From Agelas oroides (taxonomy: Eukaryota; Porifera; Demospongiae; Agelasida; Agelasidae), in assembly GCA_949130485.1 (NCBI GenBank), contig OX422183.1, positions 22,369,202 to 22,433,201 on the forward strand: a DNA stretch of 64,000 nt. Direction: 5' to 3'. The translations under genes and the position numbers were made by a program. Positions 29,904 through 63,321 of the stretch are shown piece after piece (position 1 is the stretch's first letter; every line of letters begins with the position of its first letter). The notes beneath the pieces were generated by a model. It saw only the letters and a list, made by a program, of their open reading frames with translations. It was not told where the DNA came from and made no database searches.

Positions 29904-30330
29904 AATACTTACAAAGCTAATACAATGGGGACAACAAATCCCAGAATTCACCAACCCAAGCCTGGATGACGGACCAAGGTAACCTAATAAAGGCAAGTTG
30001 GTGTGAGCAGTACATGTTAAAAGTTATCGTACAATTTGGCTAAAACTTGGAGACAGACCAAATCTTCTCAATTAAGGGTGTTCATTCAATACTTACAAAG
30101 CTAATACAATGGGACAAACAAATCCCAGAATTCACCAAATTAAGCCTGGATGATGGACCAAGCTAAGCTAATAAAGGTAAGTTGGTGTGAGCAGTACACG
30201 TTAAAAGCTGTCGTACAATTTGAAGATAGCGAGCTTTGTGATGTGTTGCAGATAATGTCATGAGATACCATACTGGCATCATCTGAATGTGGACCACACT
30301 GAAATAGCCTGCCTCAAAGCCTTCATCCAG
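29904..30330 (+). pseudogene. Nuclear receptor LBD unit 1: helix 3-5 (twice) and helix 8
   Basis: Two direct copies (29904-30050, 30088-30220) encode the LBD signature: L-I-Q-W-x-K-Q-I-P-E-F-T-K-L-S-L-D-D then, after a frame slip, Q-A-K-L-I-K. In receptors this helix 3-5 region is W/LAKxIPxFxxLxLDDQxxLL. Bases 30255-30330 encode HEIPYWHHLNVDHTEIACLK, the helix 8 region (compare IQIDDNEYACLKAI of HNF4-type receptors). Stops and frame slips interrupt all pieces. No DNA-binding domain was found. Confidence 0.75.
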
Positions 30331-31213
30331 TTTTCTTCGTTCTATTGTAATGTGTACCAACTTTTCAACACATCTGCTATTTGTGCATAAGAACTATGCA
30401 TGAAAAGTCAGGGAGTGTGTTTCGAGTCAATAGAGGTCAGTATGAGGCGAGGATTAATCCATACTAGCTGCAGACATGCATGACCTGATAATAAAATTGG
30501 TGAAGTTTTAGTTGGCCAAACGATGCTGCTTTGTCGTTGAGTGTACCTAATCGCTGGACTGAACTGGACTGGACTGGACTGTCAATGCGGCACAAGTCAT
30601 GCACATGTGCAGTTTTAACAGCATGACGGCACAGCTACGTTAGGTAGTGTCTGTACTTTTGTGTCTACTTTTCAGTCTTTTGTATCCGCTTACGTCAGGC
30701 GAATGATGGCTACGGGTGGAGCAGATGATCCCATATTGGTTGGAGACAGCAGGAGCGGTAGTGAGCACAGTGGGAGTAGCCCAGTTTGCCTTGCCCTTCG
30801 ACCTCGTGGTCTGCTTTGAGAATGCTCAGAAAGATCGTAGATTCAGCAGAGTTGAGGTAGGGATACTGTACGTCTATTAGTAATCCTTGTCAGTTGACTT
30901 TTATGTTTGAGACTAATTTGCAAACTTGGCAACAGTAGGTTTGTTAGGAATTGGTTGGCTCAACACTCTCAGAGATGTCCGAGTGAGCAAGGGAAGACCT
31001 TCCATTGGACGGATCTACAGTGTTTTTTTTTTAGATAGAACCCTTTACTCCGGTTTGTATGCACCAGAAACAAGTTATCAATCCTGTGCCCAAATTCAGT
31101 ATAGCCTATGCAAACGACCAGGGTTTAGATGCCACATATACATTAGTTAGTTTTCCTCCTCCCCTCTCCCCATACTAAAGAGTGCTTAGTTTGTTCTCAC
31201 CATGTGGAATGTT
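30331..31213. other. Unassigned; possible exon fragments
   Basis: A short run of CTGGACTGGACTGGACTG lies near 30555. From 30704 an ATG-led frame MMATGGADDPILVGDSRSGS runs 38 codons to a stop and looks coding-like in composition. An overlapping frame reads on to a possible donor near 30855. No family was recognised. Confidence 0.3.
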
Positions 31214-31469
31214 TAGCCTCGCAAGCCATAACCTTCGCAGAAAGTGTCTGGTCATGCTGCAGCCGAGTTGTCGCTGAGAAACGCAATTATCGAACATAGA
31301 TAATAGATGCTGACATCCGCTAAACACATGATGCAACTACTACTCCATGGCAACGGATGCGATCTTCAAAGAGTGTGGATTTTATCGGTCACAGCAAGTT
31401 TTTGATAACTCGATGGTCACAGTGTGACCAGATCCTTCCTCTCTGCGAAGGGTGTGGCTTGTGAGACTA
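31214..31469. mobile_element. Foldback element, TAGCCTCGCAAGCC type
   Basis: About 50-bp imperfect arms from TAGCCTCGCAAGCC to GGCTTGTGAGACTA, related to the element at 1769-2170. No 9-bp duplication is visible, so an end may be altered. Confidence 0.65.
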
Positions 31470-33000
31470 GTTGTCCCCCTTTATGACCTTTCGTCTCTAA
31501 GCAATCACTGTTCGAGCCATCGTTGCTGAGCTCAGTGATAGTGATAGCGAGGATGACATCCTAGTCTGATCTTTAACAGTGAAGAAAAGACTTATCTTAG
31601 GCAAGTGTAGATCATGTAATTATCACCTCATAATTAGTCTGTTAAAACAAACCCTTTTTGGTGTTGTTGTTAGGTAGAATCTTGCTATTGAAAGTGAAGT
31701 CGTAGCACTGGTTGGTCACTGACTGTAGCCCATAGGGTTTTCCCATGCAGCCCTAAGCCTGCAAGAGTTGTTACTGGACTGTGTTCTTGCTTGCAACAGA
31801 AATGTGTGGCAAGTTACCTCTATAGGTGATCCTCAACATTGAGAAGTGTACTTCTCAGACAGAACCTAGCCTATTTTGTAGTAATCTAACCCTGCATGAG
31901 AAAAGCTTTTACCTTCGCATAGTAAACTAATACTTCCACAGGTCAAGTGGCCTTCCACATGCAGTGCTGTGTACTGGAAGTCGGTTTGTAGTAACATGGG
32001 GATAAGCGAGGCAGAGGAGAAAGTGATTGAAGAAGAGAATAAAGAAGTAGATGTGCGGAGGTATCTACATAGAGCTTTTATCCTTTACTGAGATCAATTG
32101 TACGTATTGTGAGTTCTTGCTTTAACACTTAGGACGAGCTGAAACTATTATGAAGATTTTGCTGAATCCAAAGAGTTCATGAGTGAGTCGAGTGTGCCCA
32201 CATCATGTCACAAATGTTCTGCATACGTTATTGATGTGACCGCCTTTGCTCATCCTGAAGATGTAAAGAAAGACGACTTTCGAAAGTGTGATTACAAAGG
32301 CTCACACCCGTAGCCTTATGTGTTTGTTTTAGGAGGGATGGATTAATTGGAATCGAGTGTTGTCTTAATGAAGAGAGCCAGGGTGATATTCTTTACCTGT
32401 GGTGACTCTACTATACCCACCCATCCAATCCAGAGATGAAAAGGATGCTTGCATTTATCACAGGTCTGTTGAACTGGCCAAGTAATGTTCAAGCAGTTAT
32501 TTCCATCTGCCTACATGTATGTGTTTTGTTTCTAGTAGCCAAGATTGCGTCCCCCCTCCCTCTTTCACCTTCAACCTCCTAATGGATATACATGTAGCTC
32601 AGAAGTTGTCAGTTTTATAGCTGTAGCCTATTAGCAGCAGCTTTATGAATGCCTGATGCCATAATGGTTGCTGATCGGCCCAATCTTCTGACTTGCTGGC
32701 CATGTTTTTTTCTCAATGTGTATACTATATATATACCTACAAGGGTGCAGCAGCGCTCAAGCTTCACACATATCAGGGTAGTTGTGAGACTACATCTAGC
32801 TCACATCTCGGATGAGTACAATTTTAGATAAAGGCTTTTATGGTAGTTGACCTCACTACATTCCAGTAAACTTCTCAGTGTACTTAAGGCCTGGGTCGGC
32901 TTAGGTCAGCCCGGAAGTGCGCACGCCACCAATTATTGCTACGTGCGCCGTATTTAATGTGCAGATGTCATGTGATGCTAGTGTGACTTACAGTTAGCAA
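31470..33000 (+). other. Coding-like fragments without an assignable gene
   Basis: 31500-31569 reads TVRAIVAELSDSDSEDDILV then a stop, like an acidic protein end. 31996-32058 reads MGISEAEEKVIEEENKEVDV followed by GTATCT. 32136-32300 reads YYEDFAESKEFMSE, then PTSCHKCSAYVIDVTAFA and FRKCDYK, ending near a possible donor. These may be exons of one decayed gene, or of several. No family was recognised. Confidence 0.3.
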
Positions 33001-33005
33001 AGTAA

Positions 33006-33483
33006 CCCTTTAACTACTGATGATGAGTGCACTCATCATGCAATTTGGCCACGTTATCAGTTGGTGCAATCCGTTTTTAAAAATGCACTAGCAAGAAAGG
33101 GTGGGATGGGGGAGGTAGGTGGGCATAGCCATGACATACCATGCACATGGCAGCTGTCTTGGCTGGCTGTAGAAAATCCTTGGTCGGAAATTTCTCCGTG
33201 CTTTTTAGGGCTGCAAGTGGTGCCATCAAACGTATTGAGGCGGAGAATATATTATGTCACTACCTTAGCTAGATTTGATCTTTCTTGGACCTACATTGTT
33301 AACTCACTAATGAGTGGGAGTGGCCAAGGTCATAAACCCCAAGAGAATTGAGAACCCCTGGCTCAAGTTTGCAGTGCACGCTATGTAGCTCGCAGCGGAA
33401 GAGGAATTACGGTTCATACAAGGTATCTGTAGCTTCAAAAAGACTTCTAGAAAAGGAAACGCAGTGTATAATAGTTCAAAGGG
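33006..33483. mobile_element. TTAA-type MITE in the LBD intron (unit 1), family B
   Basis: Left CCCTTTAACTAC, right gttcaaaggg (complement CCCTTTGAAC). The flanking TTAA is mutated to GTAA/ATTG. Carries a perfect 20-bp palindrome, ATGATGAGTGCACTCATCAT, at 33020-33039. The interior is similar to family A. The same element sits at the same intron position at 40022, 52016, 61080 and 63322. Confidence 0.75.
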
Positions 33484-33544
33484 ATTGATGCATAGCAATC
33501 ATTTCTATTATAACTGATCTTTTACTTTTTCAACCCTTACCCAG

Positions 33545-34150
33545 ATACCAAGAGTCTCAGTCCAGCTGGACAAAGAAAAGTGGAGGTACTTCAGGATGAA
33601 GTTCTCCAGTCCCTGGAGAGCAGAACCAAAGCCACACACCTTTATTTATTCTAAGACTTTCAAAAACCTCATTTGCGCTTATGCTCTGTACATCGAATCA
33701 GTCTGGAGCTGAAGAACCTTGATAAACTCACTTTTTACTTTTCAGTTCCATTGAAGTACTTTATATGCAATTGTTATACACATGTATTGGAATGTTGTGT
33801 GTACACTATGCCGGTATGTTAATCTATAGTTTTATTGTCCTCCTTACCAACCACATTCATTGTCCAAAAGAGAAAGTTGACCCACCAGGGCAAAATAGCT
33901 GTCCCTACTCACTGGACTGGGACTAGACTACTGGACTGGATAACTGGACTGGACTACTGGACTGACCTTTTTGCCACTAAAAATCTTTTTTATGCTCTGT
34001 AATTAGTCTCAGTTTTCCTGTAGTGTTGTATACTGCCTAGAAAGACAGCTTTACACTACGCAAATGCAGCCGATTCCTGGCAAATAAAAGTCTAGTAAAT
34101 GTTCTATAATTACATATAGGAAAACACATGGGGTCTGGTAAACTACTAAC
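33545..34150 (+). pseudogene. Nuclear receptor LBD unit 1: helix 9-11 exon and 3' block
   Basis: After acceptor ccag (33541-33544), the exon reads DTKSLSPAGQRKVEVLQDEV, then LQSLES, matching helix 9 after the receptor motif NPD. After a frame slip it reads RLCSVHRISLELKNLDKLTF, matching the helix 10-11 region ([20 protein letters not shown] of RXR-type receptors). A stop near 33650 and the slip make it inactive. An AATAAA at 34083-34088 could be the gene's poly(A) signal. The 33484-34150 block is duplicated at 52457-53095. Confidence 0.75.
34083..34088 (+). promoter_or_regulatory. Poly(A) signal in the receptor 3' block
   Basis: AATAAA within ggcaaataaaagtctag; the same string is kept in the paralogous block at 53016-53021. 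Conservation at both sites and its place after the last LBD exon suggest a real signal of the ancestral gene. Confidence 0.45.
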
Positions 34151-34636
34151 TTGCATTTACACCACAGTTATAACTTCGTGCCGCATGAGGACAACAAGTT
34201 ACCATTTCCGCTCTGCAAACTAGCATGAGTAGTGTGGCTGAATATGTCGCCAAAAAAATGTTTGGGAGGAGTAGCTGTAGCGTGAACATTTATGGTGTGA
34301 GGGCTGGGAGTTGTAAAGACAAACTTGGTATAGGACAAGCTCAGAATATCACATGACAGCAGGCCATTAGTTGCATACCTGAGCAAATTAAAACTGCATT
34401 TACTTCTTCCACATTGGTTTTTGCTTGGGTATCAACCCAGTCTGGGTGCCAGCTTTCTCCAATCTACCGATCAAAGTGTTGTTTCTACTATTCACCAAGG
34501 GTTGCCATGTCATGTGCTCCACTTCCATCATCTGGGGAAGATGGAACGTCTGACAGGGAAGCAGTTGTCCAGTTTATTACTGGCAAACAAAGTGCAAGCA
34601 ATGAAGTGGTACCAGGTATGTAGCATAGATACTTAA

Positions 34637-35666: not shown

Positions 35667-36284
35667 ACCCTCTAGTGCACTTTTGGCTACATCATACTGC
35701 ACACTGCACACAAAGGAACTATCTGTGCACTTGTGTGCAGGTTCTGCATCAGCAGAAAGGGTGGGACAGGGGTAGGTGGGTGGGGTCACCCGCAAGATGA
35801 CATGCACATGGTGGCTGAAAGGGTGGGACAGGGAGAGGTGGGTGGGTTCATCCCAGTTCAATTTCTATTTATCATGACAGATCTATTTGTAAACTTCCAT
35901 TGTCTAACTTTGGAATAATTTTGCAACTGATGAAACCACTATCAATTTCCAGCAAGTGCACTCATATTTAGAGAGGATTTCTGACCACTGCTTCTGCTGA
36001 AGAACCATCTAAAGAGGAAGAGAGGACTAAACAAGAAGTGGATAGGAAACTACTCTCTCAAGATTTGAGTCCTGAAGCACCATACCCTGAGTGTGAGAGT
36101 GCAATTCACATGAGCTCAGCTTTTATTCTTCGCTTTTGTTCTACACATTCACATACATTGTAAATAGTTGTATGGCCACACACAATATGGCTTAAACTTG
36201 GAAGAGAGCTCAGACCATGTCAAACATCCAGAGCTTCGCTGTGTGTAGCAGAGAGTACGTGATTAAGAATCTTACTGGCTTTAC
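35667..36284 (+). other. Possible hinge/linker exon; otherwise nothing
   Basis: Short MITE-like ggtgggacaggg(t)aggtgggtgggg segments lie at 35755-35850, parts of family A. Bases 35996-36090 read SAEEPSKEEERTKQEVDRKL, then LSQDLSPEAPYPECE, an open acidic frame that could be a receptor linker exon. Confidence 0.35.
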
Positions 36285-36955
36285 TATAGCAATGTAGACC
36301 ACGCTGAAATAGCCCGCCTGAAAGCAATTATCTCTGACAAAAAGAAAGGATTTATGAATGAAGGTCTTAGCATTTCTCATATGCACATGATATACTTAGA
36401 GAAATATGAGTCCCAGGTGAAGAATTCAATCTGAGCTTTGGTTACCCACGGAGCGATACTTGCTACATGCAACCATACAGGTTCCTTATCACAGAGAGCA
36501 AGAACAGTGTTGTTTCAATGTCCAAGGATTGTAAAGCTTAGTTACTGCAAATATTACACCAGTACAGAAAACCAGGCCATTCATGGAGTAAAAAGGGAAG
36601 AATTACATCATTTTTGGGACCAAAGTCGAACAAACGCAGTCACTCCAATGACATTTCTATTTTTGCAGTCACAGGTGAAAGAAACAGTTAGCAAGATTGA
36701 TTTTACTGGTTCAGGCAAGCTGATGAGGTGGTTATGGTGTAACACGTGAAATCTTCCTTCTTTGAAGCTGATATAACTTCCACGTATCTTAATGAGCTCC
36801 TTCTTTTGTTAGCACTACCAGGTCAGGATTCATCTCTCTGAGATCCACCAAATGGAAACTCAAAAAAGAGAAATGGTCTTCACAGTAAGTAATGAGCCTA
36901 GTGAGCAGCCATCAAGTTATATAGTCCAGATGCGTTTGGTGAGACTTGCAGCTTT
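36285..36955 (+). pseudogene. Nuclear receptor LBD, type-B unit: helix 8-9 and C-terminal exons
   Basis: 36285-36420 reads NVDHAEIARLKAIISDKKKG, then a helix 9-like segment. 36669-36740 (after ttgcag) reads SQVKETVSKIDFTGSGKLMR followed by GTGTAAC. 36813-36955 reads HYQVRIHLSEIHQMETQKRE and on to SSYIVQMRLVRLAAF, where the receptor helix 10 pattern [12 protein letters not shown] would fall. The C-terminal exon recurs at 38770 and 54521. The frame is open over long stretches, so this unit may have been expressed until the TTAA insertion just after it. Confidence 0.55.
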
Positions 36956-39420: not shown

Positions 39421-39787
39421 AGCAGACTTCCTTTAATTGCAGTGTTATTGAGTAATTAAGACTAAAGATTTCATATTGGATGATGGAAACAACCTTAAGA
39501 TGTTTTTAGCCTTAAGATGGCAAAGAGAATCCTACTGCTACCTATTCACCTCAACATAACCAAACCTTTGTATGTACCTGTAAGTTATTATATACAATGA
39601 TTATCGGTTACTATAAGAAATTAAGTACAAGGTATTGCCTGGTTGACGAGTATACATCAGTAATTTATTCAGCACATGAAACAGATACCATAGAGCGTTT
39701 TGAGATGCAACCACTACCAGATTATATCAGATGGGTTAATACCAGTGAATTATCTCAGTCTTGTAAAGCTTTTCAAGGGTGTTCACT

Positions 39788-40100
39788 CAATACTTATGAA
39801 CCTAATCAAACAAATTCCAGCATTTACCATGCTAAGCCTGGACAACCAAGCAAAGCTAATAAAGGTCAGCTGGTGTGAGCATTACACACTGAAAGTAGTC
39901 ACACAATTTGGCTCAAACTTGGACCATACTGGCATCATATGAATGTGGACAGGGCATGCCTTAAAGCAATCATCCTGGCAAATCAAGGTATGCACTTCCA
40001 TAAAGTTAGCAAATTAAAAGCCATTAACTACTGATGATGAGTGTACTCATCATGCAATTTTGGCCACATGTATTAGTTGGTGTAATCTGTGTTTAAGTAC
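39788..40100 (+). pseudogene. Nuclear receptor LBD unit: helix 3-5 and helix 8, then MITE fragment
   Basis: One frame reads LMNLIKQIPAFTMLSLDNQA, then KLIKVSWCEHYTLKVV: a full helix 3-5 signature (HNF4: IPAFCELxLDDQxALLRAxxxEHLLL). About 39935-39987 gives WHHMNVDRACLKAIILAN and a GTATGC donor. The helix 6-7 stretch is deleted. From about 40022 to 40100 lies the left end of the same family-B TTAA MITE found in the other units. Confidence 0.75.
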
Positions 40101-41365: not shown

Positions 41366-44176
41366 CTCTTTAGGGCCGAAACTGCGCATGCGCAATTATT
41401 GCGCAATGCCGAAGTTAATCTCGTGGCTAGGAAACGCGATGTAGTAGTCTGAAGATTTCGCTCTCGAGAAGACGCACGCAAGAGCTGGTCTAAAGTTGAA
41501 TACACAGAAAGGTACCTACGTGATCGTAGTTTATTACTGGAGCGACGACTGGAGAGAAAATGCGGCATTAACGCCAGAAGGAGGGCTGAAACAGGACAGC
41601 GATAAAAATGGTGAGTTTGGTGCATAGGCAAGTTATTTTATTTTTAATATAAGCACTGATACGGCACATTTTGAATAAAAGAAACATACACGGTCATGAT
41701 TCTAGTAGTATGTAGTATACACACACACAAAAAGAAGTGTTTAGTGCTGGGAGGAGTGCCAGAGACTGTAGCAGTCCGAGCCATCATCGAGTCCAGATAG
41801 GCAGAGGGGAGGCTGGCCTTCACATCCAGGGCAATACCAAACTGTTTCTCTCCTCTGAGTAGGGCGCCTGATTTTACAACAGTACAAACACCTAGTGCTT
41901 TTTGCTTTGCGTGGGAGATGGCTCAATAATGCTCTCTGCTGTGATGACTCTCCAGTACTAGGTAGGGGTGGCAAAGGGTGAAGTCTGCGACGACCTAGTC
42001 TCACCCTGCTGCAGTAGCTGCCTATCAGTTGGCTTGCGAGCTTCAGTCTGAAATTCTTCAGGCTTTGCTTACTGATAGGTCCAGGGTTGGTAGTAATGGC
42101 GTATCGGGACAAGATGTGGGAATTGGTCACTACTACGTCAAAGAGAAACCAAAACACGTACTTATAGAATTTTCTTGACTTGAGCCTGACGTGGTAGTAT
42201 GACCGCAATTGATCACCACGATCTACCCCACCCATGTACTTGTTGTATGCAACAATGGAGCTGGGACAGTCGACTATCAGAGTTGACCCATCTTTTTGTT
42301 TCCTTTTCACAGGATGGGAGATGTCAGGGTCACTCATGGTAGACAGTGCACTGACAATCTTCTTGTCCATCCACACTGTGGCAACAATGCTCCCTGTTTG
42401 CCGAAAAAGGAACTTTCCCTTCTCAAGGCTTACCCCTCTGAGATCAACAGGAAAATTTCTGCGTGTGGTGAGGATGGTTCCACAGGCATACACCTTTCGC
42501 TGGAGGAGGGAAGAAAACAGGTCAACTGAAGTGAAAAACCTGTCACAGAAGACCTGGTGGTTGAGACCGGATATGTTACTGGTGAGTTTGTGAACCACTC
42601 TTTCACCTAGATTGTGCTCTGTTGTGGTATCAGCCTTCCCTGTGTACACTTCAAATTCACAAAAGTAGCCATTCCAGGAGTCCGCCCTTACCCACACTTT
42701 GAAGCCTCGCTTCACAGGCTTTAGTGGAACGTATTGTTTGAGGCTAGAGCGTCCCTTGAAAGGAATCATGGCCTCATCAATACTGTTCTCCCGATTTGGC
42801 CGATAGTTGTCAATGCATGCTTTGTTGATGGCATTGACAATTGGGAGAATTTTCTGAAGTCTGTGGTAGCCTTCATCCCCACGAGCAGGCAGAGCATCAT
42901 TGTCAACAAAGTGCAAGTAGCGTGCGATCTCTTCGAATCGATCACGTGCGATGCGGTCTGCGATTGGTGAGTAATGAAGGGAAGGATCCTTTGCCCAGTA
43001 GTCTCGGATTTCTGGAAGCTGGTTGATGCCCATCAGAACCATAAACCCAAAGTAGGCCTTTAGCTCCTCTATGCTGGTCTTCCATTCACGTTGGTTACTG
43101 CTGGGCTGTCGGGAGGCAAACTGGGCTGCATAACGATTTGTTTCCTCGACTATTGTTGTCAGCAGCTCATCGGTAAAAAATGAGGAAAATGTCGTCATAG
43201 GGTCATCACAAATGTAGCATGATGGTCCAGGTGATCCAAGGAATGGCTCAACTGTTACTGGGGTAGGATCCTTTGACCATACATAGTCTTCCTTCTCAGT
43301 CCGTGATCGCTTTGCAGGAAGGGTCGATTGACCTTTGCCTTGCCCAGTCCTCCGCTTCCCCCTTTGACCACGCCTCGGCCGGTGCACTTTGGAGGTACCT
43401 ACAAATTTATGGAAGTCTGAAATACCACTACTCTTGGTACACAATGTAAAACCCCACCTGGAGTAGTAGTAGAAGCTTGATCTACTCCCTGACTTGTGCC
43501 ATCTGGCTCCTCAGTTTCACTCTCCTTGTCCGAGTCCAGTGCTGCATTAGAATGTTTGTTTTTGCCAGACACGTACGTACGTATGCTTATACTGATTCTG
43601 TAGTTCTTAGTTCCTTACACTGTCGTTCGTTTTGTTCTTCTTCTGCAGGTCCAGGGCTGGTGCAGATCAGGCCACCGACTACTGTAGTTGTAGAATGCAA
43701 GCAGTACTCATGTTTTATTTATCATAATTTCCATTTTTGCAACCTTACCGTCGTCATCTTCATTGATCTCAATCTCATCATCAAATCCCAAGTCATCATC
43801 ACTTCCATCCATAATAATTTCATCCAAAGCACTCTCCTCTCCACAAAAAAAGCTAATCACTTCATTATCTGTGTAGTGTAAACTTGCCATACTTGCCTAA
43901 GCACTTGCTAAATCAGCCTGAGGGAAGCCCGTTATTACTGACTGTACCCTGTGTTGATAGCAGCTGCATACTACCCCCGCCAGGAAGATTGTGACTACGG
44001 TTGACCGTCTTGGTAATTGACAATGGAATGTTATGAATAATATTACCTAGCCACGTTCCACTACTTGGACTGGAGCCATGAAAGGTGAGTCTTCTACAAT
44101 AATGCGGATATATCCGCTATCGTCGTTCGTGTGTACCGCAAATTGCGCGGATATATCCGCTATCGGCCCTAAAGAG
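41366..44176. mobile_element. Complete piggyBac transposon, 2811 bp
   Basis: The ends are CTCTTTAGGGCCGA (41366) and its exact complement (to 44176). Both sides carry TTAA (41362-41365 and 44177-44180), the classic piggyBac target. Near the right end are two perfect 14-bp palindromes, GCGGATATATCCGC (44104-44117, 44147-44160). Near the left are TGCGCATGCGCA (41383-41394) and gcgcaattattgcgc. The body encodes a three-exon transposase on the minus strand. Intact ends plus an open gene make it a candidate for a recently active copy. Confidence 0.93.
41741..43890 (-). CDS. piggyBac transposase, 3 exons
   Basis: Exons 43890-43749, 43541-43458 and 43416-41741, all joined in phase 1 with GT/AG borders; the last intron is only 41 bases. 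About 633 residues. The N-terminus is acidic (SDDDLGFDDEIEINEDD), followed by a basic Arg/Lys segment. The DDE_Tnp_1_7 core has all three aspartates: SIDEAMIPFKG (about residue 289), VFCDRFFTS (367) and MGGVDRGDQL (474). The 78-residue gap between the first two equals that of the moth enzyme. The C-terminus is a cysteine-rich zinc finger (CLYCCKI…WYCPGC), which in this family binds palindromes in the transposon ends. No frame breaks. Confidence 0.95.
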
Positions 44177-45359: not shown

Positions 45360-45555
45360 TTTTAAGTACATGTAGGAAGTATACACTGGCAGCATTTTAA
45401 AATTCTATTTTGCTTGTTCTTAACAGGGCATGTGCAGTCATGCCACCCTGTTGCCAAGAGATGTCTATCAATGACAAGTGTGCAAACTGTTGCAGAAAGA
45501 AGATTTAAGCTATTGAACATTACATGCAAAAATATAGTTAGTTGTGTAAGACAAA

Positions 45556-45960
45556 GCTAACCTTATCAAGGCAAGTTGGAGCGAGCACTACAGGTTAAAG
45601 TTATCGTTGGCTTAAACTTGGGAGACAGGACCACATTGAAGATAGAGAAGCTTTGTGGATTGTTGCAGATGGTAAGTCATGAGCTACCATACTGGAATCA
45701 CCTGAACATGGACAGGACTGAAATAGCCTGTCTCAGGGCCATCATAACTGTTCAATCATGCATTTCCTTGCAGATAGAAAATTAAATATCATGGTCGATC
45801 TTTACTTCCATTTTATTTTTTCAGAAACCAAAAGTTTTAGTCCATCAGGACAAAAAAAAAATCTTAGCACTATAGGATGAAGTTCTCCAGTCCCTGGAGA
45901 ACACACCTAGGGCAGCACATTTTTTATTGACACAAAAACTCTATATATACCTGTTTGTTC
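45556..45960 (+). pseudogene. Nuclear receptor LBD unit: part of helix 4-5, helix 6-8, helix 9
   Basis: Reads KANLIKASWSEHYRLKLS, then (another frame) HELPYWNHLNMDRTEIACLR followed by AIIT, then at 45824 ETKSFSPSGQ before an A-run and stops. The helix 3 part is lost. The helix 9 exon repeats gaagttctccagtccctgga exactly as in units 1 and 5. Non-functional. Confidence 0.7.
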
Positions 45961-46427: not shown

Positions 46428-46620
46428 ACTAACGTGCCTTCCGTTGTGGATACAACTGCTTCTCACAAAGAGAATACAAATCTGCAGGTAAAACGCTACC
46501 ATTTTACAGGAAGCATAGGGTTATTAACTTAAGGCTAGACAACAAACCCATGCTACTGAAAGCAACCTGGTGTGCATGAGCACTACACTTGGAAAATACA
46601 AAAACACAATATGGTTTAAA
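46428..46620 (+). pseudogene. Nuclear receptor linker exon and type-B helix 3-5
   Basis: 46424-46489 reads VHTNVPSVVDTTASHKENTN, then LQ and a GTAAAAC donor; the same exon occurs at 51120, 53846 and 62080. From about 46533, RLDNKPMLLKATWC matches the type-B helix 4-5 at 53960. A stop follows. Confidence 0.6.
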
Positions 46621-46724
46621 CTTGGAAGAGAACACAGACCATGTAGAACAAAGCAGTACAGACACGGTATCCGTGCAGAATCACAAAAGACCAGGGCCAA
46701 CTAAAGTAGGAACAGGAGTAAGAA

Positions 46725-49151: not shown

Positions 49152-49155
49152 TTAA

Positions 49156-51008: not shown

Positions 51009-51292
51009 TTGAAGGAGGTGTGTTCTATCAGGATATGTCAATTCCCTTCCTACCCCCCATCAAGCCCCAGGTATTGTAGGTAGGGCATACCACTGATAGG
51101 CATTATGCTTGTTTGTACTAAAGTGCCTTCCCTTGTACAGAAAACTTAATCTAAGCAAGCCAAGCTTATAAAAGCAAGGGAGCACTACACTTCAAAATTT
51201 AAAACACAATATGGCTTGAAGAGAACACAGACCATGTCAAAGATCTAGAGCTTTGCTGTGTGTAGCAGAGAGTACGTGATTACGTACCTTAA

Positions 51293-51930
51293 CACTTTGC
51301 ACGCGGAAATTATATACACGTCACCGTTTATTAACGCGGAAATTAAAATTATCTGTCTGAGGTCAAAGTGACAAGCGTTGCTTAGCAAGCCCCAGCTGGG
51401 CCTTGCCAACGGCCTGATTTGCATAGGTGGCATGTAACAAGGCTGGACTAGTTCATCTAAATTGCTGATCACCGCTAGGTAAGCGATTTGTACCTGTTTG
51501 AAGCCATTATCTGTAGGTGTATATCGTAGCTTACCAGCAATTTGAAACGGTGCCGATTTTCTCATTTGTTACGTACAGCTCCGACGGACTAAGCCCTTTT
51601 CCAAGTTATTTGAAGCTAGTACTCCAGCCTTATGTGAAATCTGGAAGCCGCTTGCTCCATATGTTGAAGAAAAAGCTTCGCTTTGACAGCCCTTCTTAAA
51701 ATTCACGAACGATCACGAACTAGCACCGCCCCTTCCGCCTTCCCTGCGAGGTGATCTAAGTGGAAAGGTGTGGTCTACACTTATTACTACTCAACAGGAA
51801 GGGATTTACCCCAAAAGCTCGCTTGGCTTCGCTACTTACCGCGTAAACTCTCCCGCGCCAATATATTGGCGCATCGCGCTACGCGTGTACAGCCCGTGCG
51901 CCAATATATTGGCGCTTCGCGTTCTAAGTG
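51293..51930. mobile_element. 638-bp TTAA MITE with twin 18-bp palindromes
   Basis: Left CACTTTGCACGCGG, right cgcgttctaagtg (complement CACTTAGAACGCG), TTAA at 51289-51292 and 51931-51934. Near the right end, GCGCCAATATATTGGCGC occurs twice, perfectly, at 51855-51872 and 51898-51915, 43 bases apart. The core is shared with 47334 and 34637. Confidence 0.88.
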
Positions 51931-52015
51931 TTAATATAGTGATGTGGAGCATGCTGAAATAGCCCGCCTGAAAGTAACCATTCTGGTATGCATTTCCTTA
52001 CAGTTGGCAAATTAA

Positions 52016-52456
52016 CACCTTAACTACTGACGATGAGTGCACTTGTCATAAATTTTTGCCCGCATGTTATCAGTTGGTGCAGTCCGTTTTGAATATAGGT
52101 GTTGCACTAACAAAAAGGGTGGGGGATGGGGGGGTGGGCAGGCATAGTCCGATATGCTGTACACATGGCAGCTGCCTTGGCTGGCTGTAGAAAAGTCTTG
52201 ATGGCACTCCTCTGCCTTTGTTGGGGCTCAATTTCTGGCACTGTAGGCAGTTTTTCAGTCAGGAGGAAGTGTTTGCTGATTGGAGAGCCTGATTATTGTA
52301 GGCTCCTAATGAGTGGGTGTGGCCAAGGTCATGAACCCAAAGGGAAGAACCCTTGGCTCAAGTTTCCAGTGCAGCTCAAATCAGAGGGTATGGTTCACAC
52401 AAGGTATCCATAAGCTTCAAGAAGAATGAAACTCAAGTGTATAACAGTTTAATGGG
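52016..52456. mobile_element. TTAA MITE family B in the LBD intron (unit 5)
   Basis: Left caccttaactactgacgatg after TTAA (52012-52015). The right end …gtttaatggg is followed by attgatgc, exactly as at 33484. So this is the same ancestral insertion as 33006-33483, now diverged. Confidence 0.75.
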
Positions 52457-53095
52457 ATTGATGCTTAGCTATCATTTCTACTATAACTGATCTTTTTACT
52501 TATATTTGATCCTTTTCCAGACACCAAGAGTCTCAGTCTAACTGGACAAAAAAAGTTAGGTACTTCAGGATGAAGTTCTCCAGTCTCTGGAGAGCAGAAC
52601 CAAAGCCACACACACACCTTATTATCTATTCTAAGACTTTCAAAACCTCATTTGCGCTCATGCGCTGTACATGGAATCAGCCTGGAGCTGAAGAACTTTG
52701 ATAAACTCACTTTTTACTTTTCGCTTTCATGGAAGTACTTCATATGCTATCATTGTACACATGTACTGTAATGTTGTGTGTACACTATGCCGGTATGTTG
52801 ATCCACAGTTTTATTGTCCTCCAAGCACATCCACTGTCCAAAAGAGAAAGTAGACCCAGCAGGGCAAATCAGCTGTCTCTATTCACTGGACTGGACTGCT
52901 GGACTAACCTTTTTGTCACTAAAAATGTCCTGTAATCAGTCTCAGTTCCCTGTAGTGTTATAATACTGCCTAGAAAGACAGCTTTACACTACTCGAATGA
53001 AGCCGTTTCCTGGCAAATAAAAGTCTAGTAAATGTTCTATTGGAAAACATGTGGAGTCTAGTAAACTGCCAACTTGCATTTATACCACAGTTGTC
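52457..53095. repeat. Segmental duplication block (paralogue at 33484-34150)
   Basis: Shares the helix 9-11 exon, ggactggact repeats, gacagctttacacta, and ggcaaataaaagtctagtaa with 33484-34150, in order, about 90% alike by eye. AATAAA at 53016-53021. Confidence 0.85.
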
Positions 53096-53099
53096 ACTC

Positions 53100-53650
53100 C
53101 AGCGTGATCACTGTTGTGAAGCAAACGTGCCTCAAGTGGGCATGATCAATCTGCCAGTATAGTGAAGTGACCAGTTCATGGGATACAGAGTGCGGTTTAG
53201 GCAGGGTTAGCGTGCAGGGTTAGCGTGCAGTGTAGCTACGCGATAATGCAGGCAAAGAAGCATTCCATCAATCCCTAAAATGAGTGACAATAAAGTGAGA
53301 TATACAAGTAGAAGCTTCTATCAAGGCAAAAAGGTCAACGGTACTGGCACCTCTTGATTACATGGTTGCTCTCCAAAGTAGTTGGCCCTGCCCATTTGGA
53401 AACTATTTGTAGTCAAAAGGGCATTGGACAGCAAAAGGCGATGTTTTACAGGCTAGTATAATGTAGCTTGCAACTCTACTGGTAGGTGAGTCTAATTTAC
53501 AGGGCAAAAAAAAAAGATTTTTAGTAGTCCAGTGCAGTAGTCCAGTAAAGTGAACAGAAACACATGGGCAAAACTGCTAAAAGGTAGAAGACAGAATGAC
53601 CTCTTCTAAAGAGGATGTGAAGATCGTGGAGATTATAATTAATCTAAGCC
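53100..53650. other. No gene recognised
   Basis: Includes a gggttagcgtgcag duplication near 53205-53235. The right part resembles the 46.0-46.1 kb receptor flank (gggcaaaactgctaaaagg). Nothing else. Confidence 0.4.
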
Positions 53651-53652
53651 TG

Positions 53653-54660
53653 GATGACCAAGTGGGGCATGAAAGCAAGCTGGTGTGAGCACAAGGTTAC
53701 AAAACAATAATTTGGAAAAGATCAATCTAGGAGCTTAACTGTGTGTTGCAGAAAATCTGTGAAGAGATATCATATTAGCTAGACCATGCTGAAATAGCAT
53801 GCCTGAAAGCATGACATGCAGATAGAACCACAGGAAGAATTTGCATTCATACTAAAGTGCCTTCCACTGTGGAGAAACTGCTTCTGAAGAAGAGAATACA
53901 AATCTGCAGGTAAAACACCACTATTTTAGAGGAAGCATAGGGCTAACTTAATTAATCTAAGGCTAGATGACAAACCCATGCTAATGAAAGCAACCTGGTG
54001 TGCACGAGCACTACACATGGAAAATTAAAACACAATATGGAAGAGAACACAGACCATGTAGAGCTTTGCTGTGTGTAGCAGAGAAGGAAGGATTCACTGA
54101 GGATGATTAGGTATCTTACTGGCCTTACTACAGTAATGTAGACCAAGCTGAAATAGCCCGCCTGAAAGCAATCATCTCTGACAACAGGAAAAGGGAATGA
54201 AGGCATTAGCATGTCTCATATGCACATTTAATGCTCTTCACGGCGTATGTGCAACGATTCCTTTGAGAGCGAGTTCTTCGTTGATATGGATATTAATGAG
54301 GATTTCCTCACGACCGCGTCTATTGCTCCTTTTCCCAGTGCCCCTCCCTGAAGGTCCCACCCCTCCAACCGGTCCTCCCACTCCCCCCTCCCCCCCCTTT
54401 CCCCCCTTCCCCCTCAGCACCAGCTCTGCCCATGCTGCTGCCACTGACTGGCCATGTGGGGGGTACTGGAACCTGATACAACTTTCAATTGTCTTTATAA
54501 GCTCCTTCTTTTGCTAACACTACCAGGTGTGGATTCATTTCTCCAAGATCCACCATGGAAAATTATAAAAGGAAATGGTCGTCATAGCAGATAATGAGCC
54601 TAGTGAGCAGCCATCAAGTTACATAGTCAAGATGTGTTTGGTGAGACTTGCAGCTCTTTA
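53653..54660 (+). pseudogene. Nuclear receptor LBD fragments, mixed type A and B
   Basis: Helix 4 remnant SLDDQV at 53646; helix 8 remnant near 53780; linker exon 53846-53911 with GTAAAAC donor; type-B LRLDDKPMLMKATWC near 53955; VDQAEIARLKAIISD near 54125-54175; C-terminal exon at 54521-54660 (…EPSEQPSSYIVKMCLVRLAA). Between the last two is a GC-richer stretch (54238-54480) with an open frame NDSFESEFFVDMDINEDFLT, possibly an unrelated insertion. Scrambled and broken. Confidence 0.6.
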
Positions 54661-55773: not shown

Positions 55774-56009
55774 TTAATCTTATCTAGCCACTTTTTACAA
55801 GACAGGATCACAGAAGACACTGACACTTACTATACACGGTATCCCTTCGCCACACACAGCTAACCATGTCAGATAGCTAGTGGACGTAATTCTGGAAAAA
55901 TGGGACATTCCAACCAGCAAAGTCTCAAAGTGTTGTCACAGACAATATGGTTGCTGCATTTTGTACATATCTTGCTGCACCTAGTGAGGATGGTGATGGT
56001 GACGTCTAG

Positions 56010-56110
56010 CTTGACAGAAGAAATTTGAGGCAGTTTAGGATAAAGTTTTGCAGTTCATGGAATGCCGAGCCAAAGACACACACCATTATTCACACAAGGT
56101 TCTCAAAAAC
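56010..56110 (+). pseudogene. Nuclear receptor helix 9 fragment
   Basis: Reads KKFEAV, stop, DKVLQFMECRAKDTHHYSHK, aligning with KVEVLQDEVLQSLESRTKAT of unit 1. Isolated and broken. Confidence 0.55.
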
Positions 56111-57731
56111 TCTTGTGTTTTGGTTGATGGAACTGTAACTTTAATTATGTTCGATGGTTTTATAATTACAAAAACCTGTGATGACCGGTTTAGGCTTAAT
56201 TAATTACCAAAACTGGAATTGTTGTTTGTCAACTATGATTAGAGAAAGAATCTCTATTTAAACAAACAACATATTGTTCCACATTTTGAGGGAGGTGCAG
56301 TTCGAGAGACCATAGGATTGAGGCAGCATCTGCCGTGCAGTAATGATCACAAGACGACCATATCCTTGGCGCATTCTATTCTGAATTGAGAAAATGAATC
56401 AATAAGAAAATAAGAAATATTAGTATCATTTCAGCCATTCAGGTATGTAATCCTCTCTCCAAGAATCTTTTAGATTCAAAAATATGCCTTGCTATCACTG
56501 GTTGAGGCTTATGATTTAGATAACAATGCCATTGATCTGGAAAGTCAACTACCATATTCGCTCTAATTTATGGAATGGCAAAAAACAATTGTATTGGTGA
56601 CCGTTCCGTGCCAATGTGTTAAAAATCATGGCACTGGTCGACTGACAGATTCGCCGTGGCCGTTGTTATACGCAGTGTTGATAACAATACCACTCAGGAA
56701 AAGTGAGTGCAGAAGGCGATGGTGCTCTCCCATCATTCACGGCAGATTGAAGATTTCCTGCTACGCAACGTTCCATGGGAAGAAGAAATTGGTAATACGA
56801 CCGAGAGACATTATACTTGGAGAAAATAAAACTGAATACATAGAACTCGCCCGTTTGAGTGATCAGAAAGGTTATTTATTTCAAAATTTCATTCGTTCAA
56901 TGAATTAGAGCAAATTAAATTTGGCATTCCAATAAGTAGAACATTCCATAAATTAAAGTGAAAACAGTAGCCAAGAATACACTGTAAGAATATCAATAAC
57001 AACAGGAGAGATGCAGGACATTCAAAACTTCTTTCATAAAGTGCAACCTTTGGTCTTTGCAAAAGTTCAATACCTATACACCAGAAGAAAGTTTTCGACA
57101 AGCTCTATGGAGTGTCACCAGTTTCCAGTTGCACATCCATGTACAAGAAAATTACGTGCACTTTGACTTCTCACATACAAACATCCATTGAAGCAAAAGG
57201 TGCACCACTTGTACCGCACCCATTCATAAGATACAAATGTGTGAAGACCATTCAAAAAGGGCAAACTGTGGTATGACTTTCCAGTATAGGTACTCAAATA
57301 AGGTGGCGGGTAAGCTATCCAATCAAATGCAATAATTGTTTCCGGTTTACGTCCACCATTGTGCAGCTGGTTTTCTTCTTGAATAAAGCAAATCACTGTA
57401 GCAGCAGAATCAGTAGCTTATCAAAGAGATACGTAGCCATACAGCCATACTACAAGTGACAAAAGCCAAAAGGAAGGCCTGAGAAGTTTCTACGTCGTCG
57501 ATTGCCGTACATCAATGGCCACGCCCACCAAGAAGGCCATTGATACATTCTTCTCACGACACTTCCTGAATCAGGTAAATGACTTTAGCAACTCTCTTTA
57601 CTATAAACAGCTTCTCCAGTGGTTAGTCAAGGGGTAACGTAAAGTATTCGTGACTAACAAACGCCAGGGATAGTTCGTACTGTGAAACGCCACGAAAGTG
57701 ACTTCCAATAACAGTTTCAACTCGCCATCCG
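56111..57731. other. No recognised gene; two unassigned open frames
   Basis: A plus-strand frame at 56570-56908 (112 codons, ATG) and a minus-strand frame at 57396-57115 (93 codons; WCTFCFNGC, HGC) have no recognised domain. The latter's cysteines could be chance. Repeat-derived origin is as likely as a gene. Confidence 0.3.
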
Positions 57732-58284: not shown

Positions 58285-58288
58285 TTAA

Positions 58289-58857: not shown

Positions 58858-58985
58858 CATGTATTCAATCAATACTCCTGAAACTCATACAATGGATCCA
58901 ACGAAAGATTTTAAGCCTAGATGCCCAAGCCAAGCTCATTAATTGCAAGCAGGTGTGAGTACTACACTCTGAAGCACAAGAAAAT
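58858..58985 (+). pseudogene. Nuclear receptor helix 3-5 fragment
   Basis: Reads CIQSILLKLIQWIQRKILSL, then DAQAKLI: the LBD helix 3-4 signature with the IPxF core altered. A frame slip follows before the (W)CEYYTLK part. Confidence 0.65.
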
Positions 58986-59399: not shown

Positions 59400-59592
59400 A
59401 GAATCTAGCAGTAGCACACGGCCACATTGAAGTGCTGGAGCTGAAGAACCTTGATAAACTCGCATTTTATTCTTCACTTCCATTAAGTATTTTTTACGAT
59501 TTGTTCCTGTTCAAATTGTAAATAGTTGTGTGTATGGCAATATACCTATTTGTTCAACTAGTCATTCACTGTGTAACAAGCAGAACAATAAA
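59400..59592 (+). pseudogene. Nuclear receptor C-terminal fragment with poly(A) signal
   Basis: Reads EVLELKNLDKLAFYSSLPLS, then IFYDLFLFKL and a stop at 59521, matching the helix 11 end of unit 1 (LELKNLDKLTFYFSVPL). No acidic AF-2 helix (with the usual Glu) is visible. AATAAA at 59587-59592 follows the stop by about 66 bases. Confidence 0.55.
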
Positions 59593-59639: not shown

Positions 59640-60030
59640 TCTATATAATTACTGCTTGTATTTGCCACCTGCATTAGAACATCAGCTCTGGAACTTTCTC
59701 TGATTGTACCTATAAATACCCCATGCTCTATACCGCAATGAAAACATTGTTACATTGGTAGCAGAGGATGGTTGCTTGTTGAAGCAGACACAACGGCAGC
59801 ACACGTCAGTATCCTGAAACCGTTCGCGAGTGCAGACGTGACTGAATGGTTCAAACTGTTCAAGATATGCAGCAAGGCAAATCAATGGAACGACGCAACA
59901 AAGGCTGTCAAGTTGCCGACGTTACTGGAAGGGGAAGCGCTTGCAATTCGGCTCTGACTCAGTGAAGAGGAACAGGATGACTTCAGCGTCATGAAAGAGA
60001 AGCTGATCAACGCAATGAACCCTACTGCGT
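59640..60030 (+). pseudogene. Ty3/gypsy leader and gag N-terminal fragment
   Basis: A TATAAATA lies near 59713, and ttggtagcagagg near 59755 looks like the junction of an LTR end and primer-binding site. From 59772 the frame reads …LKPFASADVTEWFKLFKIC, then NDATKAVKLPTLLEGEALAI, a Ty3/gypsy gag start. It meets a TGA at 59955 and continues in frame as a pseudogene to about 60030. The rest of gag, protease, reverse transcriptase and RNase H are missing. Confidence 0.7.
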
Positions 60031-61014
60031 TTGTCAACAGTCAAAATTGCCATCTCCACAGCGTGCACCACTGGTGAACATTCCAATCGGATGCCCATGG
60101 CAAATGATATCCTTGAAGTGCCAATTTCCTCCAAAAATAATCGCTACTTGTTGGTGATACAAGACTATTATACAAAGTGGGCAGAAGCCATTCCCTTACA
60201 GGATCAAAAGACAGTCACAATCACAAATGAGCTCATCAAGGTGCTATCCAGACTTGGCATACCAGAGATCCTACACTCTGATCAAGGACGTAATTCTGAA
60301 AGCATTGTTTTGGCTCAAACCCTGAATGCATTTGGCCTTAGCAAGTCCCGTACAACCGCCTACCACCCCGAATGTGCTGGGATGGTAGAACGATTCAACA
60401 GAACACTTCTACAGCTCCTTCGTTCATATGTTGACACTGAAGAGAACTGGGAGCAATATTTGCCTCTTGTTTTGTACGCTTATCGTACATCTGCCCATTT
60501 TTCAACAGGAGTTTCTCCATTCATGATGATGTATGGAAGACAACCCAAGCAGTCAGATTTGTCAAACCCAACAGCCTTTAATTCTCAATCATACCCAGCC
60601 TATCTACAAGACAAGCTTGCCAATCTTCAGGACTTTGTTGAGTCCAATTTGGCTGCTGCAGCAGATCAACAAAAATCTTCCTATGATGTACACTCTTCTC
60701 TTCGAACTTTTAACATTGGAGATCATGTCTGGCTGTCTGTTCCAACAGCTGGAAAATTGGACCCACGATGGAAAGGAAACTGGACCATCAAGTCTATCAA
60801 GTCTCCTGTCAATGTTGAGATAACTGATGGCCGACAAAGTAGAGTTGTTCACATCAACCATGTGCAGCGGCGGGTGCAAGCTGCACCACAGGAACTACAG
60901 AATGGTAATATGTCAAGTAACCCTCAGAACATTTCCACAAAATGGGACCAACCGTTGATTGACCACATGTGCATTCCCTCGCACAATCAAGCACCCCAAC
61001 GGCGTTACCCATAG
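60031..61014 (+). pseudogene. Ty3/gypsy integrase, 5'-truncated
   Basis: 327-codon frame. The integrase core has the D,D(35)E triad: Asp in NDILEVP (residue 26), Asp in HSDQGRN (84), Glu in MVERFNRTL (120). After it come YAYRTSAHFSTGVSPF and the GPF/GPY-like C-terminal region (GDHVWLSV, LDPRWKGNW, VVHINHVQRR). The apparent start at 60031 is out of frame with the natural lead-in; a small frame-shifting deletion lies just before NDILEVP. The internal deletion joins gag directly to here. Not able to transpose alone. Confidence 0.85.
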
Positions 61015-61079
61015 CGAACAAGACCACCTGACAGATATGGATTTTAAAACTCAATACCAGTGCACAGCTAAGGCCTCTC

Positions 61080-61480
61080 AGTATCTTGTTATCAGTTGGT
61101 GCAATCCGTTTTGAATATAAGTGTTACACAAAATGGGTGGGATGGGAGGGTGGGCAGCATAGTCACGATATGCCGTGCACATGGCAGCTACCTTGGCTGG
61201 CTGTAGAAAAGTCTTGATGGCACTGTCTGGGCCCTTTCTCTAACTTTTAGCACAAACAGGTATAGAAACCGCTCCTCTGCCTTTGTAGGGGCTCTATTTC
61301 TGGCACTGTTGGCAGTTTTCAGTCAGGAGGAAGTGTTTGCAGATTGGAGAGTCCGATTATTAAATTAGTGGGTGTGGCCAAGGTCATGAACCCCAAGGGA
61401 AGAACCCTTGGCTAAAAGTTTCCAGTGCAGCTCAAATCAGAGGGTACGGTCCATACAAGGTATCCATAGTGTATAGGAGG
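61080..61480. mobile_element. TTAA MITE family B, left-truncated, in LBD intron
   Basis: Starts within the family interior (gttatcagttggtgcaatccg) and runs through gtgggtgtggccaaggtcatgaacccc to the family right part, followed by the same intron flank (…actttctattat…gacttttactt) as at 33490 and 52460. The left end is missing beside the gypsy element. Confidence 0.7.
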
Positions 61481-61554
61481 TTAAAAAAGAGAATGATGTA
61501 TGGATACCACTTTCTATTATGACAGACTTTTACTTATTTCATCCTTGTCCGGAT

Positions 61555-61640
61555 ACCTGGGGTCAAAGTCCAGCTGGACAGAGAAAAGTGGAGGCAGTGC
61601 AAAATGATTTTTGTGAACCAAACCAAAACCGCATACTCTA
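61555..61640 (+). pseudogene. Nuclear receptor helix 9 fragment
   Basis: After ccgg, reads DTWGQSPAGQRKVEAVQNDF. Same exon as 33545 and 52523, but the acceptor AG is altered. Confidence 0.6.
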
Positions 61641-61699
61641 TCAGCTACATGCAGGCTGACTTTTTTTTTAGATTGCCGTTGTAACCAAAACTTTGAATA

Positions 61700-62040
61700 C
61701 ATGTCCGTCATCCATAACAGAGAGTGGACCCAGCAGGGCGAAACTGCTAGAACAGAAGACCGAATGATTTATGCTGTAGAATGTTCTGAGATATGATGCA
61801 GAAATAGTCTGTATACATAAATCCGGACACCATCAAGAAACGTATACTGAGTGACAACTATTCTACTCTACACGACACTGTGCCTTCCTAGCATTGTTTC
61901 AAGACAGGCCTTCCCACCTTTTAAGTGGCTGGAATGAGGCTAGTATATACGAAGATCTAGGAGGGGGCATTGAGCTCCTATACCATTATGTCATGCAATA
62001 AAATTTGAAGTGTTGCTATGGTGATTAATTGAATTCAACC
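61700..62040. repeat. Segmental duplication block (paralogue at 45990-46385)
   Basis: See the paralogue. Same order of gagtgacaactattctactc, gccttcccacctttta, and gaagtgttgctatggtgatt. Again it lies directly 3' of a helix 9 fragment. Confidence 0.85.
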
Positions 62041-62079
62041 AGAAATTCTGACTAGTGGGATCTATATAGGAAGGCACTC

Positions 62080-63305
62080 AAATACCTTCCCCTGTGCAGG
62101 AAACTGTTTCTGAGGAAGAGAATACAAATTTTCAGGTAAAATGCTCCTATTTTACAGGAGGCATAGTTAACTGAATTACTCTAAGCCTGGGTGGCAAAGA
62201 CAAGCTAATAAAAGCAAGCTGAAGTGAGCACTATACGTTAAAAGTAGCGCTGGGACTGCAACTGATCTCTCGGAAAATTCGAAGAAAAAAAAAACACTGT
62301 TTGCTGAAAAAAAAAAAGTGGGGGCTGACACAAAATTGTATACCAAGTGCACTTGGTCTTGCTGTAAACATAACTAAATGCATTATGTAGATATGCGTAT
62401 GGAGGACATTTCACTCCATAAATGGTTATGTGCACCACATAACCCAAATACATAAAGCTGGTATGTATGTATACATGTAGACTTAGCATAGCAGAACATT
62501 TTCGTGAAAATTTTCACTCTGTTTTGACAGGGAAAAATGCCATGGTGACTCAGACTCACAGTAGAATGTTCTACGTATGCTATTTGTATATATTGCCTTT
62601 CCAGTAACCAATAATTCCTGATTTGTGGTACTTGCTGAGTCATAACATCATCACTGGCTACAATTAGCCATGCTCCCATTTCTACTCTTCTGTTTGAAGC
62701 CATTTGCATCCAACATAGCCGAGTTTTCAGGCTGGGCAAGGCTACATCCAATGGTACTAAAACATTGGCTAAGGGTACAATGTATTGTCTTTTTGAAAGC
62801 TCTAATTACATGGCCCAACACCTCTGAAAGTAAGCAACTATTTAGGCTTAAAAGTTATAACATCATATGGCTTAAACTTGGAGGAAACCAATCTTGATTC
62901 AACTCCCATTAAAGCAGCCAACCAACTGGACACCTCGGTTTCGATGAAAGCATGACATACCGACAGAACCATAAGAAGAATTTGCACCTGCTAATGATAG
63001 CCTTAACTTCGAAGATCTTTTCAAGGGTGTTCATTCAATACTTGTGAAGCTAACAGCTAATAGAATTGGAGAAACAAATCACCATGGTAAGCCTGGATGA
63101 CCAAGCGAAACTAATAAAGGCCAGCTGGCACTACACAGTAGTTGCACAATTCAGCTCGAACTTAGAGACAGACAACACTGAAGATGTGGGAGAGCTTTGT
63201 GGTGTGTTCAGTCATGAAATACCCTATTGGCATCATCTGAACGTTGACTGGACTGAAATATGTCTAAAAGCAATCATCCTGGCCAATCCAAGTATGCATT
63301 TTCTT
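62080..63305 (+). pseudogene. Nuclear receptor LBD unit 9: linker, helix 4-5, helix 3-8
   Basis: 62080-62134 is the linker exon (TQIPSPVQETVSEEENTNFQ, GTAAAAT donor). About 62190 has a decayed helix 4-5 (KDKLIKAS, stop, SEHYTLKV). 63066-63317 is the longest open LBD stretch: MVSLDDQAKLIKASW, VVAQFSSNLETDNTEDVGEL, HEIPYWHHLNVDWTEICLKA, IILANP. Here helices 4 to 8 are in one frame of about 75 residues, as in a real receptor. The donor after NPS is lost (AAGTATGC). Confidence 0.75.
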
Positions 63306-63321
63306 GCAGTTAGTTAATTAA

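Follow-up and report, generated by a model that had tools for sequence, protein, structure and literature searches.

Broken copies of a nuclear-receptor gene in the sponge Agelas oroides: a probable pseudogene graveyard

A 64,000-nucleotide stretch of the genome of the demosponge Agelas oroides (GenBank assembly GCA_949130485.1, contig OX422183.1, here called C1, positions 22,369,202 to 22,433,201; hereafter the window) contains nuclear-receptor remains, namely more than 12 broken copies of one hormone-receptor gene, all on the + strand. The array spans 29.1 to ~92.3 kb in window coordinates, which takes it past the end of the window to a distal limit at C1:22461481. We judge it highly probable that this is a pseudogene graveyard, the relic of a lost branch of sponge receptors that was locally multiplied, constrained for a time, and then broken in every copy. 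The initial annotation, made from the letters of the window, had proposed that a receptor gene expanded and decayed locally in an animal poor in receptors, and the evidence from the array supports that proposal. Its start of 29904 was too late, as a DNA-binding-domain relic lies at 29104-29307, and it overlooked the DNA-binding-domain relics, the extent of the array beyond the window, and its two subfamilies.

The copies were located by a DNA-profile search (nhmmer) of 134 kb, comprising 10 kb before the window, the window itself, and 60 kb after it. This search gave 15 matches to the exon encoding helices 3-8 of the ligand-binding domain (LBD; E <= 1e-3), 9 to the helix 9-10 exon, and 2 to the DNA-binding exon. 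The helix 3-8 profile was built from seven sequences (six copies and an intact gene on a second contig, C23), and the DNA-binding profile from three seeds, the 29.1-kb relic among them; seeds, which match by construction, make up 6 of the 15, 4 of the 9, and both of the 2 matches, so that 9, 5, and 0 are non-seeds. Two helix 3-8 matches (51155 and 51942) are probably a single copy. Inside the window lie 13 helix 3-8, 6 helix 9-10, and 1 DNA-binding match, and the others lie beyond it. Fragments occur in the window at 30.1, 33.5, 36.2, 39.8, 45.6-45.9, 46.5, 51.2, 52.5, 53.6-54.2, 56.0, 58.9, 61.6, 62.2, and 63.1 kb (Table 1). The reversed 134-kb sequence yielded no match at E <= 0.1 with any of the four models. 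The earlier count of at least ten LBD fragments, all in + orientation, is upheld. An Rfam scan of positions 28000-64000 gave no matches.

Searches of the whole assembly (259 Mb, 141 contigs) scored the best candidates, so the match counts that follow are lower bounds. A composite LBD query returned, at E <= 10, at least 17 matches among 18 candidates, 15 in the C1 array and 2 in the C23 gene, and a type II protein query returned at least 9, of which 8 were on C1 and 1 on C23. Among the best candidates scored, receptor-derived sequence is therefore confined to C1 22.398-22.461 Mb and the C23 gene.

The identity of the fragments follows from their relationship to that gene. The copies align with it exon by exon, and in the helix 3-5 block the best relic shares 26/38 residues with it, versus 19/38 with HNF4 and 15/38 with RXR; c91 and c33 also retain the pair of additional residues that it has ahead of helix 9. 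The fullest relic, at 90761-92280 in window coordinates, is 27 kb past the window end and preserves in order the DNA-binding exon, hinge, helix 3-8 exon, and helix 9-10 exon, with introns present; it scores 48.5 bits for Hormone_recep and, with pieces joined by X, 60.3 bits for zf-C4. The relic at 29104-29307 also matches zf-C4 (28.9 bits in the genome search, 30.2 bits by hmmscan), the nhmmer model of which it is a seed (E 9.3e-43), and the C23 gene (tblastn E 3e-7); both DNA-binding relics are remains only, with zinc cysteines partly lost. Because of the homology to the intact gene (itself 109.3 bits) and the scores of the relic beyond the window, we regard it as secure, on sequence grounds, that the fragments are true nuclear-receptor remains, dead intron-bearing copies of an SpNR1-type relative. 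Pfam evidence alone is weak inside the window. At four sites singled out in the initial annotation for a check with Hormone_recep (PF00104), hmmscan matched the 39.8-kb piece below the 23.5-bit cut-off (E 2.3e-4, 21.2 bits) and missed the 33.5-, 45.6-45.7-, and 63.1-kb pieces; it also missed the 30.3-kb helix 8 piece and the c36 and c53a pieces, and the 30.1-kb piece lies above the cut-off (Table 1). The six-frame PF00104 search listed no window match at E <= 0.001 among seven candidates scored, and the refuting condition set in the initial annotation, a lack of profile hits at the four sites, came close to being triggered. The motifs first used to recognize the fragments were composites: the fragments exist, and YWHHLNVDRTEIACLKAII is unbroken in no copy.

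Two intact DNA-binding domains were found genome-wide, both on C23, at 6478055 (+) and 6473544 (-). Their genes stand head to head with DNA-binding exons ~4.3 kb apart, a linkage that bears on whether both receptors arose by local duplication. The gene at 6478055 has three coding exons (zf-C4 98.5 bits, Hormone_recep 109.3 bits), finds its best match among solved structures in RXR, and carries the helix 7 RxxxE motif (as RVFNE); it is SpNR1/RXR-like. The divergent gene at 6473544 scores 66.5 bits for zf-C4 and 27.7 bits for Hormone_recep in one exon, and has extra residues within the first zinc finger, as PMC8092661 describes for SpNR2; because of this insert and that literature it is probably SpNR2. 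A pair of receptors of these kinds points to a sponge host. An HNF4-like identity was rejected for it, its DNA-binding domain being nearest to ERR-type structures and its first LBD exon having NR4A1 as a weak closest match (E 0.005). A candidate third DNA-binding domain at C1:29999354 (zf-C4 E 0.017) was likewise rejected, since tblastn with the exons of the intact gene gave chance-level pieces only. The earlier question of an intact parent can be answered: an intact relative is present, on another contig (C23), but an intact gene of the branch to which the array belongs was not found among the best candidates scored in the assembly.

The copies arose at the DNA level. The DNA-binding exon donor, the ligand-binding exon acceptor, and the helix 8/9 junction occupy the same positions as in the intact C23 gene, and the borders of both introns agree with that gene wherever they are retained, which rules out retrocopies. 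Of the two splice borders reported previously, CCAG/ATACC is present at 33541, and AATCCAG/GT is absent from the part of the array inside the window, where copies carry altered versions; within 28-95 kb its exact form occurs only at 91887. Duplicated blocks of up to 1.2 kb that include mobile elements (32987-34175 versus 51997-53098, 76%) likewise indicate DNA-level copying. Some later duplications clearly copied dead pieces: the ratio of nonsynonymous to synonymous differences (pN/pS) between c29 and c30 is 2.48, so this pair was duplicated after constraint was lost, and differences between c33 and c52 fall 5/5/5 across the codon positions.

Mobile sequence is interspersed with the array. A dispersed repeat at 49152-49615 and elsewhere in the window, beginning TTAACCCTTTAAC, gave at least 52 matches over the genome as a 464-nt query (40 of 1665 candidates scored); related sequence also precedes the helix 9 exons of c33, c52, and c61, and a second genome-dispersed repeat follows the c33 exon. 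A 589-amino-acid open reading frame at 41744-43510 (-) encodes a DDE_Tnp_1_7 (piggyBac-type) transposase domain, and one at 60019-61011 (+) a retroelement integrase core (rve).

Disablement is general: each of the copies examined either is truncated or contains a stop or a change of frame, where the initial annotation had called almost all copies broken; indel counts per copy, taken from nucleotide alignment, are rough. The relic at 90761-92280 has lost zinc cysteines and contains a stop, frame changes, and a CA-repeat insertion. The DNA-binding exon is kept in just two copies, both without the full set of zinc cysteines, and most LBD pieces have no adjacent DNA-binding exon. No clear helix 12 (AF-2) was found in c33, c52, c59, or c92, the four copies that reach that point; a loose helix 12 pattern matched eight times, seven of them elsewhere, and the eighth, IFYDLF at 59489 in c59, lies near the expected place, shortly before a stop. 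It is very improbable that these exons still serve, either in a giant alternatively spliced gene or as short receptor-fragment decoys. Splice signals do survive in some, and one frame in c63 is open over 63054-63290 (the nearest following helix 9 match being a weak one at 72.4 kb), but universal disablement, the loss of zinc cysteines from both DNA-binding relics, and the lack of a clear helix 12 all argue against such a role.

The copies fall into two subfamilies that share a deletion site. In a 13-copy tree, type I comprises c91, c71, c63, c39, c29, c30, and c45 (bootstrap 57), type II comprises c36, c46, c51, c53a, and c54 (bootstrap 90), and c58 lies outside both. Exactly 27 nt are missing at one place in four of the five type II copies (c36, c46, c51, c54), and type I copies show losses at the same place of 31 nt (c45), 33 nt (c63), and 36 nt (c91). 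In both subfamilies, then, overlapping segments of 27 nt or more are missing close to the ligand pocket, amounting to at least 9 residues ahead of helix 7, a region that we take, with structural naming after RXR, to be the beta-turn/helix 6 region. Type I is further marked by a 3-nt codon absent in all five copies that cover the site. Among type I copies, c91, c45, and c30 no longer have the RxxxE arginine, and in c63 it is deleted; in type II the state of the motif is equivocal, with the arginine retained in c36 and c54. Since type I relics lack this motif, we file the relics as a derived branch and not as SpNR1 itself.

The pattern of divergence points to past selection on the encoded protein. 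We compared pN/pS with a substitution null in 56 of the 91 copy pairs, those with at least 28 codons (28-79 per pair), and it fell under the null at p < 0.05 in 34 (examples being c91/c39 at 0.27, c39/c45 at 0.24, and c46/c54 at 0.11); against the intact gene, all 14 copies gave p <= 0.02. Single noncoding controls were too noisy to serve as a null, and the true frame was therefore compared with the two wrong frames over the 56 pairs. The ratio was lowest in the true frame in 52, with medians of 0.47 in the true frame versus 0.85 and 1.17 in the wrong frames, and most of the divergence therefore arose under protein constraint. In the helix 3-8 exon, between-copy difference rates at codon positions 1/2/3 are 0.27/0.20/0.40. 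Collectively, these results suggest, as far as sequence comparison can, that several copies were once working genes.

Several observations weigh against the reading of the array as a once-constrained, multiplied branch. In 22 of the 56 pairs pN/pS did not reach p < 0.05, and in four, c29/c30 among them, the true frame was not the lowest. The pairs share branches and so are not independent, the pieces are short, and the DNA-level alignments were anchored on the intact C23 gene. Codon-position rates in the helix 9-10 exon (0.29/0.24/0.31) show a slight third-position excess, and five noncoding control alignments (18-99 differences) gave uneven mod-3 counts, with the largest share at 0.40-0.52. 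Several nodes of the tree are weakly supported, and at the pocket site the deletion is larger in c30 and c39 and replaced by two smaller gaps in c53a. Parsimony assigns changes at positions 1/2/3 of 58/39/84 to terminal and 55/40/87 to internal branches; with an equal third-position excess on both, neither the time of death of each copy nor the number alive together can be resolved. Finally, dead copies shed by one working gene could imitate part of the constraint signal.

This last possibility, in which one working C1 gene repeatedly shed dead duplicates and then died without ever founding a multi-gene working family, is the most durable of the alternatives, and we consider it unlikely. It would accommodate the copying of dead DNA in c29/c30 and c33/c52, the retention of the DNA-binding exon in two copies only, and the small third-position excess among copies in the helix 9-10 exon. 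However, signs of constraint link many different copies and extend to both subfamilies (the ratios of 0.27, 0.24, and 0.11 above), and each subfamily has deletions of its own (3 nt in 5/5 type I copies, 27 nt in 4/5 type II copies), a pattern that shedding would fit only if the source gene changed fast between sheddings. Capture and multiplication of receptor exons by a mobile element has marginally less to recommend it than a continuing function for the exons: the array is rich in dispersed repeats and holds the open piggyBac-type transposase frame, but a carrier would scatter its cargo, and we reject this explanation because receptor sequence, always on the + strand in the array, was found, among the best candidates scored, only in one C1 block and the C23 gene. 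Least credible of all is the array as a source of small RNAs targeting the intact receptor, an idea prompted by the repeated relics and the single close intact relative and rejected because exact identity with the intact coding sequence extends over 19 nt at most, in sense orientation, with no antisense match of at least 15 nt listed.

Under the graveyard model, a duplicate of an SpNR1-type receptor gene would have come to sit on C1, where its ligand-pocket region (beta-turn/helix 6) would have been shortened by at least 9 residues, presumably in a single founder event. Local DNA duplication would then have multiplied it into at least two subfamilies, several members of which may have been expressed as receptors and evolved under protein-coding constraint as working genes. 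Later, stops, frame changes, deletions, and insertions of mobile elements would have disabled all the copies found, with renewed duplication of some of the dead pieces, leaving the two intact C23 receptors; we infer this order of events, and likewise that no intact member survives outside the assembly. A more ambitious form of the model, to which we would give a little less than an even chance, posits an extinct receptor branch of at least two working subfamilies with a DNA-binding domain and a pocket-shortened LBD, type I without RxxxE and perhaps without helix 12, whose members were perhaps ligand-independent or repressor-like partners of SpNR1 before all were lost.

Sponges anchor the root of the nuclear-receptor tree. 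The demosponge Amphimedon is reported to have two receptors (Bridgham et al., PMC2950128), and SpNR1, which carries the helix 7 RxxxE, and SpNR2 are the sole receptors found in sponges, with amplification noted in calcareous sponges, where SpNR1 has four paralogues (P1-P4), P3 lacking RxxxE (Beinsteiner et al., PMC8092661). Reitzel et al. (PMC3038971) report no evidence of sponge receptor radiations and describe ctenophore receptors that lack a DNA-binding domain. The relics resemble SpNR1 (AqNR1 of Amphimedon), compared via the C23 gene only, in the DNA-binding domain, helices 3-5, helices 8-9, the two extra residues before helix 9, and the intron borders. They differ in lacking at least 9 residues before helix 7 and a clear helix 12, in the missing RxxxE arginine of type I c91, c45, and c30, and in being broken throughout. 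Like the calcareous paralogues, compared by description, they would represent a lineage-specific SpNR1 amplification, and P3 among those paralogues has also lost RxxxE; in contrast to them, reported as receptors, the C1 copies found are all dead. As duplicated (unprocessed) pseudogenes do, the copies keep introns at the parent's positions and are clustered and disabled, but no intact same-branch member is present among the best candidates scored in the assembly. Most C1 LBD pieces lack an adjacent DNA-binding exon and in this recall the ctenophore receptors, except that the array once had such an exon, now decayed to two relics. The novelty first claimed has to be reduced, SpNR1 amplification as such being already published with the four calcareous paralogues (PMC8092661); searches of the open-access literature, outside which fall most subscription papers and all bioRxiv preprints, turned up no account of a sponge with an array of dead receptor genes. 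The graveyard is ordinary in kind and informative in place. With a local radiation that has died out, counts made today may understate past receptor diversity; loss, and not just a lack of duplication, would have held the receptor number at two in this genome, and the array would be a natural record of the pocket regions that an early receptor could lose under constraint.

Table 1. Receptor relics in the window, in window coordinates
Feature	Position	Strand	Remarks
DNA-binding-domain exon relic	29104..29307	+	second zinc finger readable; zinc cysteines lost; splice-donor position kept
c29, helix 3-5 fragment	29904..30054	+	tandem partner of c30, 184 bp apart, 90% identity
c30, helix 3-8 exon relic, type I	30061..30338	+	profile seed; Hormone_recep 27.3 bits with X at joins
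c33, helix 9-10 exon relic	33531..33740	+	seed; one in-frame stop; acceptor CCAG/ATACC intact; no Pfam match
c36, helix 6-8 exon relic, type II	36179..36336	+	two stops; no Pfam match
c39, helix 3-8 exon relic, type I	39729..39993	+	seed; big internal deletion and frame change
c45, helix 3-8 exon relic, type I	45537..45759	+	seed; no Pfam match
c45, helix 9 exon relic	45816..45943	+	seed; ~57 bp downstream of c45 helix 3-8 exon
c46, helix 3-6 relic, type II	46508..46659	+	profile match
c51, type II relic	51146..51291	+	final part probably at 51929-51987
c52, helix 9-10 exon relic	52507..52719	+	seed; recent sister of c33, similarity over 1.2 kb
c53a, relic	53638..53811	+	profile match; no Pfam match
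c54, helix 3-8 relic, type II	53813..54237	+	profile match
c56, helix 9 exon relic	56004..56117	+	profile match
c58, helix 3-5 relic	58861..58974	+	profile match
c59, helix 10 relic, weak	59435..59471	+	nhmmer E 3.3e-4; helix-12-like string next, at 59489
c61, helix 9 exon relic	61539..61641	+	profile match
c62, helix 3-4 relic	62175..62248	+	profile match
c63, hinge and helix 3-8 exon relic, type I	62891..63297	+	seed; no Pfam match

Other open reading frames lie upstream of the array. One at 4765-5418 (-) contains an apextrin C-terminal domain (ApeC, 165 bits), and that at 10826-11572 (-), which matches no Pfam family, is a partial near-copy of a 548-amino-acid open frame located ~5.3-7.0 kb before the window (-). 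A 431-amino-acid open frame at 17196-18488 (+) includes an F-box, and positions 24350-24787 (+) hold a fragment of an Ulp1-type protease (Peptidase_C48).

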